This document shows positions 44,209 through 64,000 of a stretch of 64,000 nt of DNA, one piece after another. Position 1 is the first letter of the stretch, and every line of letters begins with the position of its first letter. Below the pieces are notes generated by a model. The model saw only the letters and a list, made by a program, of their open reading frames with translations. It ran no database searches and was not told the origin of the DNA. Source of the stretch: Gavia stellata (Eukaryota; Chordata; Aves; Gaviiformes; Gaviidae). The stretch is taken from contig NC_082600.1 in NCBI RefSeq assembly GCF_030936135.1, positions 26,853,943 through 26,917,942 on the forward strand. Direction: 5' to 3'. Both the position numbers and the translations under genes were made by a program.

Positions 44209-45112
44209 AATCATAGAATCATGGAATCATTTAGGTTGGAGAAGACCATTAAGATCATCGAGTCCAACCGTTAACCTAGCACTGCCAAGTCCACCACTAA
44301 ACCGTGTCCCTAAGTGCCACATCTACATGTCTTTTAAATACCTCCAGGGACAGTGACTCAACCACTTCCCTGGGCAGCCTGTTCCAATGCTTGATAACCC
44401 TTTCAGTGAAGAATTTTTTCCTACTATCCAGCCTGAACCTCCCCTGGCACAACTTGAGGCTGTTTCCTCTTGTCCTGTTGCTAGTTGCTTGGGAGAAGAG
44501 ACCAACACCCACCTCTCTGCAACCCCCTTTCAGGTAATTGTAGAGAGCAATAAAGTCTCCCCTCAGCCTCCTTTTCTCCAGACTGAACAACCCCAGCTCC
44601 CTCAGCCACTCCTCATAAGACTTGTGCTCCAGACCCCTCACCAGCTTCGTCACCCTTCTCTGGACACGCTCCAGCACCTCAATGTCCTTCTTGTAGTGAG
44701 GGGCCCAAAACTGAACACAGGATTCGAGGGGCGGTCTCACCAGCACCGAGTACAGGGGCACGATCACCTCCCTGCTCCTGCTGGCCACACCATTTCTGAT
44801 ACAGACCAGGATGCCATTGGCCTTCTTGGCCACCTGGGCACACTGCTGGCTCATATTCAGCTGTCTGTCAATCAACACCCCCAGGTCCTTTTCCACCAGG
44901 CAGCTTTCCAGCCACTCTTCCCCAAGACTGTAGCGTTGCATGGGGTTATTGTGACCCAAGTGCAGGACCCGGCACTTGGCCTTGTTGCACCTCATACAAT
45001 TGGCCTCAGCCCATCGATCCAGCCTGTCCAGATCCCTCTGCAGAGCCTTCCTACCCTCGAGCAGATCAACACTCCCGCCCAACTTGGCGTCGTCTGCAAA
45101 CTTGCTGAGGAA
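44209..45112 (-). mobile_element. CR1 LINE, 5'-truncated, best-preserved copy
   Basis: On the minus strand the copy begins abruptly in ORF2 near 45112 at the Ser-Lys-Phe-Ala-Asp-Asp stretch. It runs through the C-terminal part of the reverse transcriptase protein and ends at 44209 in a tail of ATGATTC-type repeats. The reading frame from the truncation point to its stop at 44297 is unbroken, which marks this as younger than the other copies here. 5' truncation is the normal outcome of CR1 insertion. Confidence 0.93.
44297..45112 (-). pseudogene. CR1 ORF2 remnant (C-terminal reverse transcriptase)
   Basis: About 270 codons in one frame, without a true start. The FADD box near the truncation point corresponds to the second catalytic Asp pair of the reverse transcriptase (family consensus F/YxDD). 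Downstream lie the conserved [17 protein letters not shown] and [11 protein letters not shown] segments of CR1. The endonuclease and the first half of the polymerase are missing, so the product could not act alone in retrotransposition. No promoter is evident. Confidence 0.9.
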
Positions 45113-45364
45113 AGGGGTCTCCAGAGCCAGGCAGGCCTACCAGAGCAGCCGGATGACTTGGCAAGGGGGAAGCAAGACTCTGGTTTCTACAGCGGGTTAG
45201 TTCATCTATCCTGGCAGTCTACCCACGCCCAGCTCTTGCTTGGACGTCCCTCCTGTGACTGGTACAAGAAGAATTCCTGTAGAGCCAAGCCAGACTGCAG
45301 AACACACTGACAGAGCTGACAGGAGCAGCTGCCAGCCCCTGTTTTTCCCCAGGTAAGGTGAGTG
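45113..45364. other. Short unique segment beside CR1
   Basis: No gene seen. A good plus-strand splice-donor-like sequence CCCAG then GTAAGG lies at about 45350-45357, with a further GTGAGT immediately after it; no exon can be assigned. Confidence 0.4.
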
Positions 45365-45745
45365 CAGTGGGGGGGGGGCGGCTGGCTTTGTCCGTCCCGG
45401 GAGCCGCAGGCCTGCGCCCCAGTAACGCAGAGGGGCTCCAGCTCCAGGAGCGCCAGCACAAGCCCAGGCCACGCCGTCACCCCGCGTCTGTTCCTCCCCG
45501 CTGTTCGCCAAGGCCGAGTTAGACGAGATCTGCGCCAGAAACAAGCTAGGGCGGGGAAGCCCGGGCGGGAGAGGGGCCGGGACGCTGCCCGGTGCCCCCG
45601 CCGCCCGCCCGCTGCCGGGACCAGCCCCGACCGGCTGCACCCTCTACCGGCCGCGGCTCGCAGGCGCCACCGGGACCGCGGCGTCAGCAGCTCCCGCCGC
45701 CCTCAGCACCGCGTCCCGGGACTCCGTGACGCCACTTGTAACACT
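45365..45745. promoter_or_regulatory. Intergenic CpG island 1
   Basis: GC-rich, CpG-dense sequence starting with a run of about ten G at 45369-45378 and ending near a TGACGCC word at 45727. No coding exon recognised. It may be an alternative JDP2 promoter, an lncRNA promoter or an enhancer with island character. No clear minus-strand donor was found close by. Confidence 0.55.
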
Positions 45746-46961
45746 AAAACGGGCTAAAACAGGATGGGGGCGTGTGTCTCATGTCAGACACCACGAGTGT
45801 CACCACGTCCTGGACGCGGCACGCTAGAGAGCTGCGAACACCGACACCTCCAGTCAAGCCCCCGCCTTATCTCGCCTCCCACCTGAGCCAGGAGTGCTCC
45901 TGCAGGCAGGCGGTTTTCCTCCTGCCTGGTTTCCCCTTCCAGAAGAGCAACTCTCCGCAGCCACAGCTGTATCAGACCAAAGGCACTGCGTTTGTTCTCA
46001 CAACCACCGCAGGCTTTTAGCTTTTGTCACCAAATCTTCATTGCAGGGTACTCATCAAGCACAAAACCAGTGTGACTTGCTAAACCACAAGGCCCGGAGC
46101 TCACTTAAAGAGCAAACATCCTGCCATCGGACCAAGCGTTTTCATTTTGGTACGATAGCCTTCACCAGCACAAAGACTAAACCTTTGCTTAGGTACCTAC
46201 AATGCCTTCAGTGCTCCGCAGCCTCAAAACTGGATCCAAGGAGCTTCCAGAAAGGAAACAGGGCAACAAATATTTCAGAGAAGGCAAGGGAAACGGTCAT
46301 GAATCTTTTTCCTGGTGAGCTAACACCCACTACTTGATCAGCCCCAGCTTTCTGGGATGGTGGGGCCCCATACAGGTGCACAGCACTACCTGCAGCTGGC
46401 AAGCCATGGTCACTGCAGGACAACATGCTGTGATACACACGTTATCAGCCTCAACACAAAAAGATTTGCCTTTTTCCTCACCCCCCTTCTCACACAAGGC
46501 AACTTGTAATTCCCAGATGCAGCTAACAGCAGAGAGTCAGTTATCTGGAAATGACTGGTTGCGGTTTCAGGCTATGATAGATGGCACTCACTGGTAATCC
46601 TTCCCTCCCTCTCTCCATTAACACTCCTCCTCCCTCCAGTTACCAGAAAATGCAGCACTGCTTCCTTCTGCCCGCCCCTCTCTCCTCCCTCCAGGCTACT
46701 CCTTTGGAGAATTGGCTCCACAGCTGGATTGTAAAATAATCCAGCTGTTCCTATGACAACGTGCTGGCAGTGGGCAGAGATGACGCCAGCACACAGTGTT
46801 GGCCCATTCACTACCAACACCCAACTCTGTTTGTTTTGGTTTGGGATGCATTTGTTTTTCTATGTGGGCAGCTCTGCCGAGTACATTTCTGAAGGCCGGA
46901 GGGGCAGGAGGAGCCACAATCCCAGAGACGCCAAGAAAGTTGCTGGCTCTGTGATTTACCC
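45746..46961. other. Intergenic, nothing recognised
   Basis: No supported gene or repeat. A CT-rich plus-strand block lies around 46590-46700. Confidence 0.5.
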
Positions 46962-49990: not shown

Positions 49991-50129
49991 TCAGGGTCAG
50001 AGCATCCTGATTCAATGCTCCTCAACTAGAACTAGTGACTCCTGCTTTTCCCCCCAGTGCTCAGCTTCCCGGAGACCAGCAGGGAGCAGTGAAAGGCGAG
50101 GAATGAAGACCTACCCACCCGACCAGCAG

Positions 50130-50520
50130 CATTCCTGCAAGGCTGCAGAAGCGTGCCGGGACGGCCCGGGGCTGCCGTTAGGAGTGCCCGGCCCCGGGAG
50201 GCGGGGCAGGGCCCCGGCCAGCCGCCGGCCAACAGAGGGCACTGCGGGGTGCGCTGACCGGGCAGGGAAGGGGCACGGCCGGCAGCGCCCCGCCGGGGAG
50301 CGGACAGCCGGGCGCGGCCGGCGGCGGGAGAGCGGCGGCGACACGAGGCGCTGAGCAGCCGCCGGGAGCGCGGGTCTCAGGAGGGGCCTTGAGCGCAGAC
50401 CTGGCCGGGGCACGGAGAGGCTGGGGGGCGTGTTCTTCAGCCGGGGAGTCAGGTGGAGGGGGCTGCCCAGCCGGCTGCAGCCACGGGTGCCAGCCCGCCG
50501 CCCAGATGCCCAGTGACTCC
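50130..50520. promoter_or_regulatory. Intergenic CpG island 2
   Basis: CpG-dense, GC-rich block directly to the right of the old CR1 copy. It has long stop-free frames on both strands, none with a domain. A minus-strand donor-like sequence, CGGGTGGGT, is near 50111-50120, so a minus-strand transcript reaching toward JDP2 is possible. Role unproven. Confidence 0.55.
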
Positions 50521-51521
50521 CAAGATCGGCGGGCTATAGCTGCTGTAAGCATGGAACGTTGCTTGTTGCTTCAAGCGTCTGGGGCTGCAGGGTTCATGTT
50601 GCCCAACGCTCCTCCTTGATCTCAAGATCTAAACGCATGCTGAACAGAAACCGAAATTTAAATGCTTACATAACCACATGACTCCAGGCACTGGGATGAT
50701 GAAATCCCAAGCAGCACCAAGACTTCCACTGACACAGGACCTGGAGGGGGGACTGCCAAAACCCAGGAGACGCGGGCAGCCCTGTCCCACTTTACTGGAC
50801 AGCTTCGGTACAGCTCAGGATCGTGCTCACACCCATCATGCAGCTGAACACCAAGGCCACAAAGACATTTTCATGCTTCTGTCAGTTCCAGTAAAAACTA
50901 CAGCATACTGCTTTAAGCTACGGCACTTTATCCACAGGTGATAAGTATGGAAAATCAGACTTAGGGAAAAAAATCCCAGTGAATGGATGTCTCGGGACCC
51001 CAGAGACCTCAGTTTAGAGGTGGCTGCACCTAAAAGCACTGCCTCAGGGGTCTGACTCCTGTGTTGATGCAACGGGCAGGGGTGGTTTCAGGCATTCCCT
51101 TGTCAGTCTCTCCACCCTCTCTCCTGGCCTGGGTCAACACACCTCTTCCAGGGGAGGCAGAAAGGAATGGGAACTTCAGCTTTTGTCACTGGGCGTCGGG
51201 GAGCTCTGCACAAGCCCCTTTCCTCAGTCACTTGGTTAGCTAACAGCACTGGGGGCAGGGGAGGATACACACAGGCTCCTTTTTGTCTCCTTGGAGAGCT
51301 AGCAACCCACTACAGATAGCAAGGACGGTATTTTAAACTGCTAGTTACATCTGTCAGAGCATGTCATCCAGACCTTTGAGGTACTCATGCATATACCTAG
51401 AGATGTTTCTTACATCTGGAGTAGTTCCTTGCCACAAACCCTGTATGTTACCACTCAGCTGCTTTCACACACACCACCAATGCATTACTCCTCTATTCTC
51501 CCTGACTCAACTGATCCCACT
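50521..51521. other. Intergenic, nothing recognised
   Basis: No supported gene. A TGACTCA AP-1 core lies near 51503-51509. Confidence 0.5.
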
Positions 51522-54249: not shown

Positions 54250-55955
54250 GGGCATGAAGCTAAAGGATGGCATGAAGCTAAAGGAGAAGGCAGAGTTACT
54301 GAATGCCTTCTTTGCTTCAGTCTTCACTGCTCCGGCCAGCCCTCAGGAGTCCCAGATTTTGGAGGTAACAGAGAAAGTCTGCAAGAAGCAAGACTTTCCC
54401 TTGGTTGAGGAGGATCAATTTAGAGACCAATTAAGTAAACTGGACATGCACAAGTCCATGGGTCTTAATGGGATGCACCCGCAAGTACTGAGGGAGCTGG
54501 CAGAAGTCATTGCTGGGCCACTCTCCATCATCTCTGAAAGGTCCTGGAGAACAGGCGAGGTGCCTGAGGACTGGAGGAAAGCCAGTGTCACTCCAGTCTT
54601 CAAAAAGGGCAAGAAGGAAGACCCAGGAAACTACAGGCCAGTCAGCCTCACCTCCATCCCTGGAAAGATGATGGAACAGCTCATTCTAGGCGTCATCTCA
54701 AAGCATCTGGAGGAAAAGAAGGTTATCAGAAGTAGTCAACATGGATTCACCAAGGGGAAGTCATGTCTGATGAATCGGATAGCCTTGACTGGATGGATAG
54801 ACGAGGGGAGGGCAGTAGATGTTGTCTACCTTGACTTCAGCAAGGCTTTCGACACCATCTCCCACATCATCCTCATAGGCAAGCTTAGGACGTGTGGGTT
54901 AGATGAATGGACAGTGGGTGGATTGAAAACTGTCTGGTAGATAGAGCTCAGATGGTTGTGATCAGTGGCACAGAGTCTAGTTGGAGGTCTGTAACAAGTG
55001 GTGTTCCCCAGGGGTCAGTACCGGGTCCAGTCCTTTTCAATATATTCATCAATGACCTGGATGAAGGGATGGAGTGTGCCCTCAGCAAGTTTGCTGATGA
55101 CACAAAACTGGGAAGAGTGGCTGATGCACCGGAAGGCTGTGCTGCCATTCAGCGTGACCTGGACAGGCTGGAGAGTTGGGCAGACAGGAACCTTATGAAA
55201 TTCAACAAAGGCAAGTGGGGTACTGCACCTGGGGCGGAATAACCCCATGCATCAGTACAGGTTAGGGGCTGACCTACTGGAGAGCAGCTCTGTGGAAAGG
55301 GACCTGGGAGTCCTGGGGGACAACAGGATGACCATGAGCCACCAATGTGCCCTTGTGGCCAAGAAGGCCAATGGCACCCTGGGGTGCATCAAGAAGAGTG
55401 TGGCAAGCAGGTTGAGAGAGGTTATCCTCCCCCTCTACTCTGCACTGGTGAGGCCGCATCTGGAGTACTGTGTCCAGTTCTGGGCTCCCTGGTTCAAGAA
55501 GGACAGGGAGCTGCTGGAGAGGGTACAGCAAAGGGCTACAAAGATGATTAGGGGACTGGAACGTCTTTCTTATGAGGAAAGGCTGAGGGACTTGGGTCTT
55601 TTTAGTCTGGAGAAGAGAAGACTGAGGGGCCATCTTATTAATGCTTAGAAATACTTAAGGGGTGGGTGCCAGGAGGATGGGGCCAGTCTTTTTTCAGTGG
55701 TGCCCAGTGACAGGACAAGAGGTAACGGTCACAAACTTGGTCATAGGAAGTTCCATCTAAAGACTTCGTTACTGTGAGGGTGGTAGAGCACTGGAACAAG
55801 CTGCCCAGAGAGGTTGTGGAGTCTCCTTTGCTGGAGATATTCAAAACTCACCTGGTTGCATTCCTGTGCAACCTGCTCTAGGTGAACCTGCTCTGGCGGG
55901 GGGGTTGGACTAGATGATCTCCAGAGGTCCCTTCCAACCCCTATCATTCTGTAAC
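54250..55955 (+). mobile_element. CR1 LINE, 1.7-kb 3' portion
   Basis: The largest CR1 copy in the window. It begins inside ORF2 before the reverse transcriptase core, just after a 16-base tandem duplication of GCATGAAGCTAAAGGA. It runs through the polymerase and ends with 'GGTTGGACTAGATGATCTCC' and a short tail. It lacks the 5' UTR, ORF1 and endonuclease. Confidence 0.95.
54254..55646 (+). pseudogene. Broken CR1 ORF2 (reverse transcriptase)
   Basis: The reverse transcriptase is readable in three pieces: 54254-54940, 54907-55242 and 55247-55648. The frame shifts near 54920 and again near 55243, and a further TAG lies at about 55646. The first piece contains the VYLDFSKAFD catalytic motif and the HGFTKGKSC segment; the second contains the FADDTKL catalytic box; the third has the KDLGVLG-like and [10 protein letters not shown] segments. 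With these breaks it is not a functional gene. Confidence 0.93.
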
Positions 55956-59160: not shown

Positions 59161-59599
59161 CCATTAATTTTTGACTGTCCACCAGCTCCGAGAACTTTCT
59201 TTGGCAGGCTTCCTGCCCTATTTTGACCGAAAGCAGAAGAGTCAGATTTATTGGCAAAGTAGCAACAAAACAAATGACAAGAGAACCGGCAGAACAAGCG
59301 TTCAAGGATACAGGTGCACGGTCACCTGCTACACTGAAGTCAGGCTTCACAGGGTAGCTCTTGCACTGCAAGTGCAGTAAAAATGTGGTAATTCTTTTCT
59401 GTCACTTAATTCCGTATGGAGATAAAAGCTAATTGTTATTCTGCATTTTTTTATGTTAAGTCAAATTATATCACCCTTGATTTTCCACCATCACAGGTCA
59501 ATTCTTCCAGCCAAGAGCTGATCATGGACATTCGCAGCTGGAGAGGCGATGCCAGGGAAGCCTCGTTAAGGGCAGCGAGAGCTACATCCCGTTACCTAT
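59161..59599. other. Unique sequence left of the FOS-side island
   Basis: No gene or repeat recognised. Confidence 0.5.
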
Positions 59600-60560
59600 G
59601 AACCCATCTGGGACTCCACACGCAGCGCTGCGGGGCGCCAGGGACGCTCCCATTCCTCCCCCCAACACCTCACCCCCCACAAGGGGAGGAGAGGAGGTGT
59701 GACGGAGCCCACCACGCCTCGCCGGCCCACCGCAGGCGCGCACCTGCGAGGAGCCCCGCACGGAGCTCCGCCACGGGCTTCGCACCTTCTCCAGGCTGGG
59801 GCGAGGCTCTGAACGGGGGCCCCGGCTGTGGGGACGCTGTGGGGACGCTGCCGGGGCGGGGCCGGGCAGCGCCCGGGCGAGGCGGAGGAACACGGACGGC
59901 CGCGCGCCCCCCTCCCTTCTACAACCTTCCCGCCGCAGAGCCGCACGCGCTAACCGACGTCCAGCGCCCGCCACGGGAAGAGGGGCGCCGCCGCCTTGCC
60001 ATATATGGGCACGGCCGGAAGTACTTGCGTCATGGCGTTGGCTCGTAGCGTTTCCGCGGGGAGCGGGACGTCACGTCCCTGACGCGCCCGCCGCGCGGCG
60101 CCCTGGCAACCAAACAGTAAACACGGCGGCGGGCGCGCAGCCGCGGCGGCGGCCCCCGCAGCGCCGACCGGGCCGGGGCGACCCACCGCCCGCCTGAGGG
60201 GAGGCCGGCTGTGCCTGCGGCGGGGCGGGCCCGGGATCTGCGCCCCGGCCCCCGGGAGCCGCCCCACGGCCCCTGGCCGGCGCGAGGGGCCCGGAGGAAG
60301 GCCCGCCTCAGCCCCGCTCCGGGCCTCTCCGCCGCCCGCCGTTCACCCGGCTCCGTGAGAGGGCTCCGCGGGGCCGCGCTGGGGCTGGCCCGACGCCGGG
60401 AACCTCCGCGGTGATTTCAGGTATCGGCAGCGGTGCCAGCTCGGGCCCCTGCGCCCGGCCCTCCGGCCTGCGGGGGAGAGGGGCAGCCCCGCCGCGGCCT
60501 GGGGCAGGAGCGCTGGAGACGAGGGGTGAGCGGAGGGCGCACAGGAGCGTGTCGGGACCG
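59600..60560. promoter_or_regulatory. CpG island 3, about 3 kb downstream of FOS
   Basis: A strong CpG island of about 1 kb with sharp borders. It contains a tight cluster of SRF, ETS, C/EBP-ATF and CRE-like sites (59999-60079) and a CCTGGCAAC half X-box (RFX-like) at about 60101-60109. Donor-like sequences occur on the plus strand (TTTCAG then GTATCG near 60419; GTGAGC at 60526) and on the minus strand (GCAG then GTGCGC near 59745). It is not part of FOS or JDP2 as I can place them. A bidirectional promoter for unannotated transcripts, or a promoter-like FOS enhancer, are the main options. Long frames within it are GC artefacts. Confidence 0.7.
59999..60079. promoter_or_regulatory. SRE-like cluster: CArG, ETS, C/EBP-ATF and CRE-like sites
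   Basis: In order: CCATATATGG (59999-60008), a perfect CC(A/T)6GG SRF site; CCGGAAGT (60015-60022), a consensus ETS site six bases further on; TTGCGTCA (60025-60032), a C/EBP-ATF-type composite; and GGGACGTCACGTCCC (60065-60079), a 15-base near-palindrome holding GACGTCA, 7 of 8 CRE bases. SRF with an adjacent ETS factor is the ternary-complex arrangement of serum-response elements; with CRE sites it resembles immediate-early promoters. The ETS core points away from the CArG box, unlike in the FOS SRE itself. Confidence 0.6.
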
Positions 60561-62984
60561 CAGCTCCTGGCGCATCGAAGCAGTCCTGGATCCGCAGCAC
60601 CCTCCTCTATCCGGGGTTACTTTGCTGTGCAGCCCTTCTTCTTTCTGCTATAAACGTGTTGAAGGCTCTTCATGTTGTTTCACAGCTCTACTTCTTGTAA
60701 TTCGTAATAACAATTCCACTATTCCTTGCGTCGTGTTGCAGTTTCATTTGTAAGAAGTAATTACAGTACTGCCCTCAATGGGATCAGGAGCACAGGAGGC
60801 GTCAGAAATAATGCGCAAAAATAACGCGATCATTACCTGTTTGTCTTATCTCCTTCCATTGTTTTGTTTCAAAGCTTTGTACCGATATCTGTGTGATGTA
60901 TCAGATACAGCTTATAATTGAGGCACATGCATGTAACCCGTTCCAAGCAGAGATCGCTGCGTTACTCCCTCTCATGGCTCTGTTGAAGTTAGTGGCAAGA
61001 TTCCCACTGATTTAAGTGAGATTTCACACCAGAGTTCTTAAATGCTAGGAAGCAGATAAATCATATCCATGACATGTCATAAATTTTATCTAGCACATCC
61101 TGAATCCTGGATCATCCCAGGCTGAAGGCAAAGAGTAGGGCTGGAGCCTGGGGTTAAACGTAGCTAACGTCTCTCGTGTAGTGCCACCCCCGAGTTGACA
61201 TCATTGCGTAACAAATGCAAAAGCTGACACTTATACTTGGCATTTGCTGTCGCTGCTGTTAGAAAGAAAAGCCTCAGTTAGGCTGCAGGACTGCTGTCTC
61301 TCAGAATTCAGCACTAGATTTTGCTTTAACCTGTCCAGTGACCATGAGAGATAATGGGGCCAGGATCACTCCACCTACTTTGAGGGGACTGTATGGTATT
61401 TTGGGACTCTATAGACACCCTGCTCTTTTCTGCCTCTCTGCTGAACGTCTAGTGATTTCAACAGCATGCATGGGCTCTTTAAGACCTCTGAGTTTTCCAG
61501 CTCTGAACCTGATAGTCTTTCAGCAGAAGGCACATTGTGATTCCAGATTTACTGACTTCATGGGGTTACTTTTCAAGTAAGTCTCACTCTCTTGCAGCTA
61601 CACCTACATGACTGCTTCAGGGATCAGCGCTAGTGCATTTACTGCGTCTGGGCGTTGCCCTTGTAAACTTGAGTGGCTATGTGAAAGTAGCTGCTTCGCA
61701 GTGGGTGGCACCTCAGTAGGAACTGGGGTCATTCTTCATCAGTTGTCAGCGCTACCTCCAGCTTAGTGTTGAAAGATGGGAAGCCGCACGCATAATACTT
61801 GCTTTTGCACAGGGCAGGCTGTGTTGAGCAAGATGTGAAGCTGCAATACGCACTATTGAGATGAGGTACATCCTGTGCGTGTTCTGAATAGGGAAGGGGT
61901 GAAGAAAGCAGAGCCTGCTGCAGTGACCAGGAAACGTGGAGTTACACAAACCCAGGCCTGAACGCCAGAGAAACCTCCAGCCTGCAGAGATTGCCTGCGA
62001 CCAACAGTGTTGAGGTGGCCTTCAGCCGGACACACGTACCAATGCAGGTGGTGTCTTTGCCTCTACCTTGAGAAAGGAGTTCTCAAGAGCTGGAGTAACA
62101 GGGCTGGATACCATTGGGGAGGCCTCCCTGCTCTCATGGGATTCTTCACGCGTGAACATTAGGGAGGGAGCAGAGTAGTGCGCCGCACACAGAGGTAACC
62201 TGCCCCAGCAGCACATGTTTCACTGCACAAGCAGCAGGAATGAGAGAGCACAGTAACCCCTCTAAACTAACTTGGGAAGGAGAGGCCGTGTTACACAGAC
62301 CTCAGGGACAGAACATGTTCCCAGAGCATGTGGGCTGTTTGCCATGACTCATATTCATTCAAGGTCTGGGCTAGATTTAATAGAAAGTGGGGGGCAAGTG
62401 AAGGGTCAGTGTTCTGCTTATTCCACTCAATCCAAAGTGAAAAGAAAGGGTGTATGTCTCCTCTCACAGCCAGAAGGCAATACTCCGTAGCTGCTCTTAG
62501 AGGTGCCAGAACTCATCCAGAGGTACCCAGAGCCAGGGTGCATGTCCACTCCTCTCCAGGCAGGAGGAAGCTGGGCTGTTAAGCACATGCAAATGACTGG
62601 GTGGGCCCCAGGCTGGAGATGGCCTCCCTGATTCAGATACATGAACTCACCTGCCCTTTTTACCTCCTTTCCAGTGAGGCCTCCCACTCGTCCCTGAAAG
62701 GCCACAGCAGGTGACATGCAGAGGCACAGAGGAGCAGGAAGGGACCAGACCCAGACAGATCAGATGGGCACCACTGCCCACCAGAATGGGTGGGAAGGAC
62801 ATAGTCACAGCCAGCCCTGACTAACACCAGGGCAAGGACAGGTCCAGCCTTCAGGGTGTTCCCACCCCAGTGCGCCCTATGCCTCAGGCAGCTAGCACCA
62901 GTCTGCAGTTCAGTGGGAGGCTAGGAAACCCCTTTAGCGTCACAGGGAAGAGATGCAGAAGTTAACACAAGGACAGCTTCAGCA
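60561..62984. other. FOS 3' flank, no gene recognised
   Basis: About 2.4 kb between CpG island 3 and the FOS poly(A) site. No coding exon, no clear repeat. Two regulatory-type words are listed separately or in the findings (AP-1 at 62345, octamer at 62587). Confidence 0.55.
62344..62352. promoter_or_regulatory. Palindromic AP-1 site downstream of FOS
   Basis: ATGACTCAT is a full 9-base AP-1 palindrome, about 640 bases past the FOS poly(A) site. FOS is known to be regulated by AP-1 feedback and by enhancers on both sides of the gene; use of this site is inferred. Confidence 0.4.
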
Positions 62985-62999
62985 GTCAACTTAAATGCT

Positions 63000-63005
63000 T
63001 TTATT
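63000..63005 (-). terminator. FOS: FOS poly(A) signal AATAAA
   Basis: Canonical AATAAA on the minus strand, preceded by GACATTGTC and followed by AGCATTTAAGTTG, the same context as in the mammalian FOS gene. Cleavage expected near 62985. Confidence 0.93.
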
Positions 63006-63090
63006 GACAATGTCTCTGAACAATAATAAGCAAACAATGCTTAAGTTTCATCCAAATTCACTTTCCACATGTCAAAAGAGACCTCAAGGT

Positions 63091-63151
63091 AGAAAAAAAT
63101 AAAATAAAAATATAAATATCTGAGAATCCATCTTAATAAATAAATTAAAAA
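63091..63151 (-). promoter_or_regulatory. FOS: FOS AU-rich mRNA-decay element
   Basis: The minus strand holds AATTTATTTATTAAG (overlapping ATTTA pentamers with the TTATTTATT nonamer at 63143-63135), then GATATTTATA and a long U-rich stretch. This is the classic class I AU-rich element: it recruits decay factors such as the TTP/AUF1 families and limits FOS mRNA to minutes. Very strong conservation with mammals. Confidence 0.92.
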
Positions 63152-63773
63152 CACAATAAAAACGTTTTCATGGAAAACTTATGTCAGGACATTCAGACCA
63201 CCTCAACAATGCATGATCAGTAAAGTTACAATGAACATCAATGTAGAACTACAGTACATGGATATAGCTATTCATCTACCTACTAGAAAATAAAATAATC
63301 TTTTTCCCCCCCACATAAGATGGGTCATTGCTAAGTCATCAGAACACGATATTGCCAGGAACACAGTAGTTATTGTTAATCAGCTGCACTAGATACGAGT
63401 TGGAGATACCCAGCACCAGGTTAAATTCCAATCATTTAAAACCAAGAGATTAATTAGTTAATGCTAGTGATACTAAGGAGGGGAGGGAGTCACCTACCCA
63501 GCCATGTGGGACATGCTACAGACTACCAGCTCTCATGGATGGGCCACTGGGGACGAGACAAACTCCATGCGATTTGCTACATCTCTGGAAGAGGTATGAG
63601 GCCTCGGTGCGGGGCACTCTGCCAGCCCCCAGGGCACCAGGCCAGATGGGGCAGGGGGGTGGCGGTGGCGGGGCCCTCCCCAGGCCCAGGGAGCCCCATG
63701 GGGCACAGCGGCAAGTCCGTGGGGGTGCACGGGCAGGGGAGGGGCCCGGCAGGTCAGTCAATGCTGGAGCCCC

Positions 63774-64000
63774 TCACAAGGCCAGGAGGGTGGGGGAGCT
63801 GAGGGAGTCGGACGAGGGCTCGTTGCTGCTGCTGCCCTTCCGGTGTGCGGCAGCACAGCTGGGAAAGGCGTCCGCCTCAGGGTAGGTGAAGACGAAGGTG
63901 GAGGTGTAGGTGCTGGGGCAGGGGGTGCAGGTCACCACAGGGGTGCAGAGGGGCTCCAGCTCACCGGTGGTCCCGGTGCCCAGCAACTCCCAGTCCGACG
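63774..64000 (-). CDS. FOS: FOS proto-oncogene protein, C-terminal 74 codons (partial)
   Basis: FOS is the immediate-early bZIP protein that pairs with JUN to form AP-1. The window cuts the last exon; the frame is open from the right edge to TGA at 63776-63774. The visible part starts Ser-Asp-Trp-Glu and ends SSPTLLAL, the conserved FOS terminus. It includes the FTYP motif (DEF docking site for ERK), the RKGSSSNEP segment holding the serine equivalent to human Ser362 (RSK target), and the Ser-Pro equivalent to human Ser374 (ERK target). The stop-proximal residues are nearly identical to the mammalian protein; the region around FTYP is somewhat diverged. The bZIP domain lies outside the window. 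The gene runs toward JDP2 on the same strand. Confidence 0.97.

Follow-up and report, generated by a model that had tools for sequence, protein, structure and literature searches.

Near Fos, rat neurons have been described to possess three or more transcribed enhancers, and the eRNA of the downstream enhancer-3 increased within 7.5 minutes of KCl addition, with activation of this enhancer raising Fos mRNA (PMC7515708). Among the mouse Fos enhancers, 1, 2, and 5 were inducible, the first two lying approximately 18 and 38.5 kb upstream of the gene (PMC9106336), and downstream of the mouse gene, at 12 kb, RNAPII, H3K27ac, and a labour-induced eRNA were reported (PMC7384763). FAR591, a two-exon lincRNA arising downstream of rat Fos and running in the Fos direction, was reported to promote Fos (PMC10203311). 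These statements follow the available parts of the four reports. For birds, the main text of a chicken eRNA study does not mention FOS (PMC12652509), and among the papers listed by our literature search there was no report of the CpG island near bird FOS that is described here. The initial annotation had proposed this island as the best candidate for something new in the window (the whole stretch of 64,000 nucleotides of Gavia stellata DNA that was analysed). Because enhancers that lie downstream of FOS and make noncoding RNA have already been described in rat, mouse, and human, the island is not a new kind of element; novelty would lie in its being a CpG island that carries EGR-like sites and in its occurrence in a bird.

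The genome comprises 1.32 Gb, and the contig carrying the window 50.6 Mb. A region of 154 kb was scanned, consisting of the window, 60 kb rightward, and 30 kb leftward of it. The gene order across this region was BATF-JDP2-island-FOS-TMED10-NEK9, names which we assigned presumptively from characteristic peptide words located in the translations; the FOS protein translated from the DNA resembled chicken FOS. On the minus strand were found the bZIP exon of BATF at about −15.8 kb, exons of JDP2 within 2.9–8.9 kb, and the last exon and 3′UTR of FOS (62980–64000), a gene extending to approximately 65.7 kb, beyond the window; TMED10 (92.4 kb) and NEK9 (113.3 kb) lay on the plus strand. The stop codon of FOS was located near 63775 and an AATAAA near 63003, immediately beyond which we placed its poly(A) site. 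Its TATA box lay at 65739–65745, so that the 5′ half of the gene falls outside the window. The motif cluster studied here thus lay approximately 3 kb beyond this poly(A) site, at a distance of 5.7 kb from where FOS starts. Like the mammalian downstream Fos enhancer, the island occupies the FOS-JDP2 interval on the downstream side of FOS, and the order of these genes is the same in mammals. The interval between JDP2 and FOS also contained LINE reverse-transcriptase-like reading frames at 44297–45136 and 54251–55648, presumably of CR1 type, and two further CpG islands (45311–46020 and 50011–50640) in which no CArG, ETS, or TGACGT word was found, the former having two TGACGC-type words. Another CpG island, with three half-CRE words, was situated upstream of FOS, approximately 6.7 kb from its start (L005:8371–9390, corresponding to 72371–73390 in the window frame and hence beyond the window).

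The CpG island itself spans 59441–60750, with a GC content of 0.69, a CpG o/e of 0.92, and 145 CpGs, confirming the initial annotation in placing a CpG island beside FOS (minus strand). Our own criterion, with a minimum length of 350 bases, yielded 14 islands in the 154 kb; the CpG o/e of this one was the highest among them, and the motif cluster falls in the middle of it. A genome search with the 131-base core as query returned only the core itself, and one with the whole 1310-base island returned the island and a single 86-base stretch at 76% on contig C20; in this search, which skips very common words, the island was apparently single-copy. A dispersed repeat or duplicated promoter was therefore rejected, no second copy having been found with either query. 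As to the start of a coding gene, 10 ORFs of the region, picked from 387 listed, had no Pfam match, a comparison that short coding exons could escape. No Rfam family was found within the window at gathering scores, and no tRNA was detected. An exact 21-base search for stray vertebrate DNA in one other genome-contig collection gave 0 matches, a result uninformative on conservation. Orphan CpG islands acting as enhancers are a known class, and a 2017 paper by Bell and Vertino, cited in PMC12652509, is said, by its title, to concern orphan CpG islands. The island appears to resemble this class, as no coding start that we found lies at it.

All four words that the initial annotation had listed within 81 bases were present, base for base, at the positions given. 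The first, CCATATATGG (59999–60008), is a perfect palindrome and fits the CArG consensus CC[A/T]6GG, and CCGGAAGT (60015–60022, plus strand) lies 6 bases from it; together they provide the CArG box and the adjacent ETS core GGAA/T of a serum response element (consensus and ETS definitions as in the available part of PMC8541449). The third word, TTGCGTCA (60025–60032, plus strand), includes TGCGTCA, a 7-mer that is also found 3′ of the CArG box in the FOS promoter, and the fourth, GGGACGTCACGTCCC (60065–60079), forms an inverted repeat of 15 bases that contains CRE half-sites. A weak ETS-like word, GCGGAAAC, occupied 60050–60057 on the minus strand. Near the cluster, and additional to the words listed earlier, were a CRE-like half-site TGACGC (60080–60085, plus strand), an RFX-like half-site GTTGCCAG (60103–60110, minus strand), and a forkhead-like GTAAACA (60117–60123, plus strand). 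The full TGACGTCA was absent from the island.

Sites of this type were scarce in the surroundings. Ten CC(A/T)6GG boxes were found in the 154 kb; six had an ETS-like word near, two lay in a CpG island, and it was these same two that had a CRE-like word within 81 bases. A CArG box in a CpG island with ETS-like and CRE-like words within 81 bases therefore occurred twice, in the cluster and in the FOS SRE, and CCGGAAGT occurred only once in the 154 kb. Across the genome, CCATATATGG was counted 598 times and CCGGAAGT 15,055 times. We inspected 36 of the 598 CCATATATGG sites: 15 on contig C1, 20 within a longer word (the island included), and one in EGR1. Among the 15 on contig C1, which were the first listed and not a random sample, none was in a CpG island, none had a CRE-like word, and one had an ETS-like word. 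Islands of 1310 bases were also simulated under six models, 6000 each. Two models were derived from other islands, the FOS promoter among them, two from the present island after removal of the cluster, and two from the present island with the cluster retained. The strict trio did not appear within 81 bases in any of the 36,000 simulated islands, and the analytic estimate was 1.5e-6 to 1e-5 per island. All motif statistics were computed post hoc, after the cluster had been found.

A sceptical reading is that the motifs assembled by chance within a CpG island and have no regulatory role. Motif words by themselves never prove use, and approximately one pair of CCATATATGG and CCGGAAGT within 81 bases would be expected in the whole genome (598 × 15,055 / 1.32 Gb × ~145), so that the force of the observation rests on the trio, the island, and the address next to FOS jointly. 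It is this conjunction that stands against an accidental assembly, which we regard as very improbable; chance is a poor explanation of the cluster.

The promoters of FOS and of the EGR genes served as controls in the same genome. A PF11928 family search gave four matches in three genes, which we take to be EGR1 (L030), EGR2 (L031), and EGR3 (L032) from their upstream regions and N-terminal peptides. The 4-kb upstream regions of the three genes contained eight CArG boxes, all in CpG islands, six with an ETS-like word, four with a CRE-like word, and three with both within 81 bases. EGR2 had no CArG box with both partners, its CRE-bearing CArG having no ETS-like word within 81 bases. The combination of CpG island, CArG box, ETS-like word, and CRE-like word within 81 bases was accordingly present in the island, FOS, EGR1, and EGR3, although the ETS-like word of EGR3, CCGGATA, is weak and overlaps its TATA-like word.

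The 13-mer CCATATATGGGCA, common to the island and EGR3, had 23 sites in the genome vs. 2 for its reversed control. Twenty of the 23 loci were examined, the other three all being on contig C44. In 16 of the 20, GC content was 0.32–0.47; one of these (L046) had CRE-like words, six had ETS-like words, and none had both. The four GC-rich loci were the island (L043), EGR3 (L051), L040, and L052, and all but the last had both ETS-like and CRE-like partners. L040 had a GC content of 0.66 and a CpG o/e of 0.54, slightly below our island threshold. Its N-terminus had no match in NCBIfam or PDB sequences, and so the name EGR4, which we presume for it, rests on its N-terminal sequence and three zinc fingers. 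L052, on contig C41, carried CCATATATGGGCA at a GC content of 0.77 and a CpG o/e of 0.87, with neither an ETS nor a CRE partner.

The arrangement of the sites set the island apart from these promoters. Counted from the first base of the CArG box, a half-site [A/G]CGTCA started at exactly 16 bases in FOS, EGR1, EGR3, and EGR4, and in EGR2 a TGACGT started at 14 bases; to judge by the letters, a CArG box and a CRE half-site at set spacing in FOS (65995–66027) and EGR1-4 look like a composite immediate-early element. In the island, the CRE half-site was found at +28 from the CArG start, outside the 14 to 16 spacing, and the ETS site lay between the two. TATA words were TATAAAA in FOS and TATAAAG in EGR4, and TATA-like words judged by eye were GATATATAG, CATAAATA, and GATAAATG in EGR1, EGR2, and EGR3, respectively, near which no strict TATAAA was found. 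The plus strand of the island from 60009 to 60530 contained neither TATA[A/T] nor ATAAA. Like the island, the FOS promoter SRE packs a CArG box, an ETS site, and TGCGTCA into 33–34 bases within a CpG island. In FOS, however, the order is ETS-CArG-TGCGTCA, with the partners flanking the CArG box, whereas in the island it is CArG-ETS-TGCGTCA, with both partners on one side, and FOS combines its half-site at +16 with TATAAAA where the island has +28 and no TATA-like box. TCFs are said to tolerate ETS placements other than that in FOS. The nearest match at the level of words was provided by the proximal promoters of EGR3 and EGR4, which have the same CCATATATGGGCA in a GC-rich setting, followed by ACGTCA, with an ETS-like word near; unlike the island, they have the half-site at +16, a TATA-like word downstream, and a protein-coding gene to drive. 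In intron 1 of FOS (L005:1125–1132, minus strand), TGCGTCAG was observed, followed shortly by GACGTCAG, the 7-mer common to the FOS promoter and the island.

The suggestion that the cluster is of immediate-early promoter type thus held in part: the types of site were those of the FOS and EGR promoters, but the spacing (+28 instead of +14 to +16) and the lack of a TATA-like box were not. Because of these two differences the island cannot be described simply as another promoter of the FOS type, and given its different geometry it shares the site types of immediate-early promoters without being a copy of one.

An island of this composition might instead be the constitutive promoter of an unannotated lncRNA, driven by ETS and CRE/ATF factors, with the CArG box a bystander or a weak substitute for a TATA box. 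TATA-less CpG-island promoters commonly contain ETS and CRE words, and the island is TATA-less with a very high CpG o/e. Of each 6000 simulated islands, 136 to 284 acquired a CArG box by chance alone, and L052 exemplifies a GC-rich CCATATATGGGCA site that does without ETS or CRE partners. On the other hand, a CArG box as close to ETS and CRE words as in the cluster appeared in only 2 to 6 of 6000 simulations even when loose words were allowed, and the sole other CArG box in an island of the 154 kb was the FOS SRE. We consider a constitutive lncRNA promoter possible but unlikely.

Signals for a transcript leaving the island were sought in both directions, splice donors being scored with a home-made frequency matrix. 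Rightward, antisense to FOS, a possible donor GGG/GTGAGC at 60525 (60523–60531, plus strand) scored 7.6; leftward, in the FOS direction, possible donors within 59668–59788 (minus strand), with last exon bases at 59786, 59744, and 59674, scored 7.5, 7.7, and 8.0. On the same matrix the three donors of FOS scored 11.3, 10.9, and 6.2. The first AATAAA for a leftward transcript was at 59247–59252 (minus strand). For a rightward one, no AATAAA or ATTAAA occurred from 60080 to 63097, and five such words followed from 63098 to 63289, beginning with the AATAAA at 63098–63103 (plus strand), within the antisense of the FOS 3′UTR. GC skew across the island had no consistent sign and indicated no direction. 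Use of the CArG box as a leftward TATA box (TATAT at 60005) would be possible but was set aside as lacking support. The CRE half-site nearest to the CArG box of the island is on its rightward side, and in FOS and EGR1-4 the half-site is downstream along transcription. CRE-like words were also found before the CArG box in EGR1 (−52), EGR3 (−32), and EGR4 (−51), and the hint of direction is therefore weak. Donors, poly(A) words, and the side of the half-site are, as read from the letters, hints only.

One reading of these hints is an immediate-early promoter of a rightward spliced transcript, antisense and convergent to FOS and ending in or past the FOS 3′UTR. Such a transcript would have its half-site on the downstream side, as in FOS and EGR1-4 (14 to 16 bases), a donor at 60525, and a stretch free of poly(A) words before the five in the FOS 3′UTR, where a leftward transcript would already meet AATAAA at 59252. 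The CRE-like words preceding the CArG box in three EGR promoters speak against it, as do the missing TATA-like box, the weak donor, and the ease with which poly(A) words arise in an AT-rich 3′UTR such as that of FOS. In addition, FAR591 of the rat, a spliced lincRNA, is transcribed in the same direction as Fos, as stated in the available part of its report (PMC10203311). We judge a rightward transcript of this kind improbable, and its further consequence, that it would affect FOS by transcriptional interference or as an RNA, belongs to the same joint reading and is no less doubtful. Put more broadly, it would be a speculative proposal, and an improbable one, that birds have a second immediate-early start 3′ of FOS, within a CpG island of its own, which fires with FOS and whose convergent noncoding RNA ends in the FOS 3′UTR and feeds back.

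On balance, the island is probably a TATA-less orphan CpG island responsive to SRF, TCF, and CREB-ATF, with a role as a promoter-like enhancer of FOS that is itself transcribed into noncoding RNA, a reading to which its motifs and position point and which we hold with restrained confidence. SRF would bind the CArG box CCATATATGG, an ETS factor of the ELK/TCF type the adjoining CCGGAAGT, and CREB/ATF or C/EBP-ATF dimers TTGCGTCA and GGGACGTCACGTCCC. Upon ERK and Ca/cAMP signalling, the bound factors would recruit CBP/p300 and RNA polymerase II, and the island would then start to be transcribed into noncoding RNA, probably both ways, as is usual for the cores of CpG islands and enhancers. Acting over 5.7 kb, it would also increase the transcription of FOS. 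What we infer for the island is thus that it binds these factors, is inducible, is transcribed, and acts on FOS; its sites, which are of the types found in the FOS and EGR promoters, its position 3′ of FOS, and the failure to find a second copy are observations.

Several findings count against a promoter-like FOS enhancer. The word CCGGAAGT doubles as a housekeeping site of the GABPA type. Inhibition of CREB in rat neurons left Fos eRNA1 and eRNA3 unchanged, and tethering eRNA3 at the enhancer from which it arises brought no increase in Fos mRNA (available part of PMC7515708). According to the portions available of the respective reports, the human counterpart of the mouse region downstream of Fos has PR and JUND peaks, not SRF (PMC12157839), and in mouse fibroblasts SRF peaks were present at only 15% of 1,267 TPA-inducible remote sites (PMC5364370). 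The mammalian downstream Fos enhancers resemble the island in being noncoding and downstream of Fos, theirs being reported with induced eRNA. The island differs from them in lying approximately 3 kb beyond the poly(A) site and in being a CpG island with an SRF/ETS/CRE trio, no CpG island being mentioned in the available parts of those reports. Any RNA from the island would be similar to FAR591 in being noncoding and originating downstream of Fos; FAR591, however, runs in the Fos direction and, in the part of its report available, is described as driven by the glucocorticoid receptor.

Neuronal activity is routinely read out by the induction of FOS, birds included, and it is in rodents that the distal control of the gene has been elucidated. 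An 81-base candidate beside bird FOS, with sites matched to FOS, EGR3, and EGR4, allows the sharing of downstream FOS control between birds and mammals to be tested, and likewise whether an orphan CpG island can be an SRF-driven enhancer. Should the convergent reading be true, each stimulus would launch a noncoding RNA towards FOS that ends in the FOS 3′UTR.
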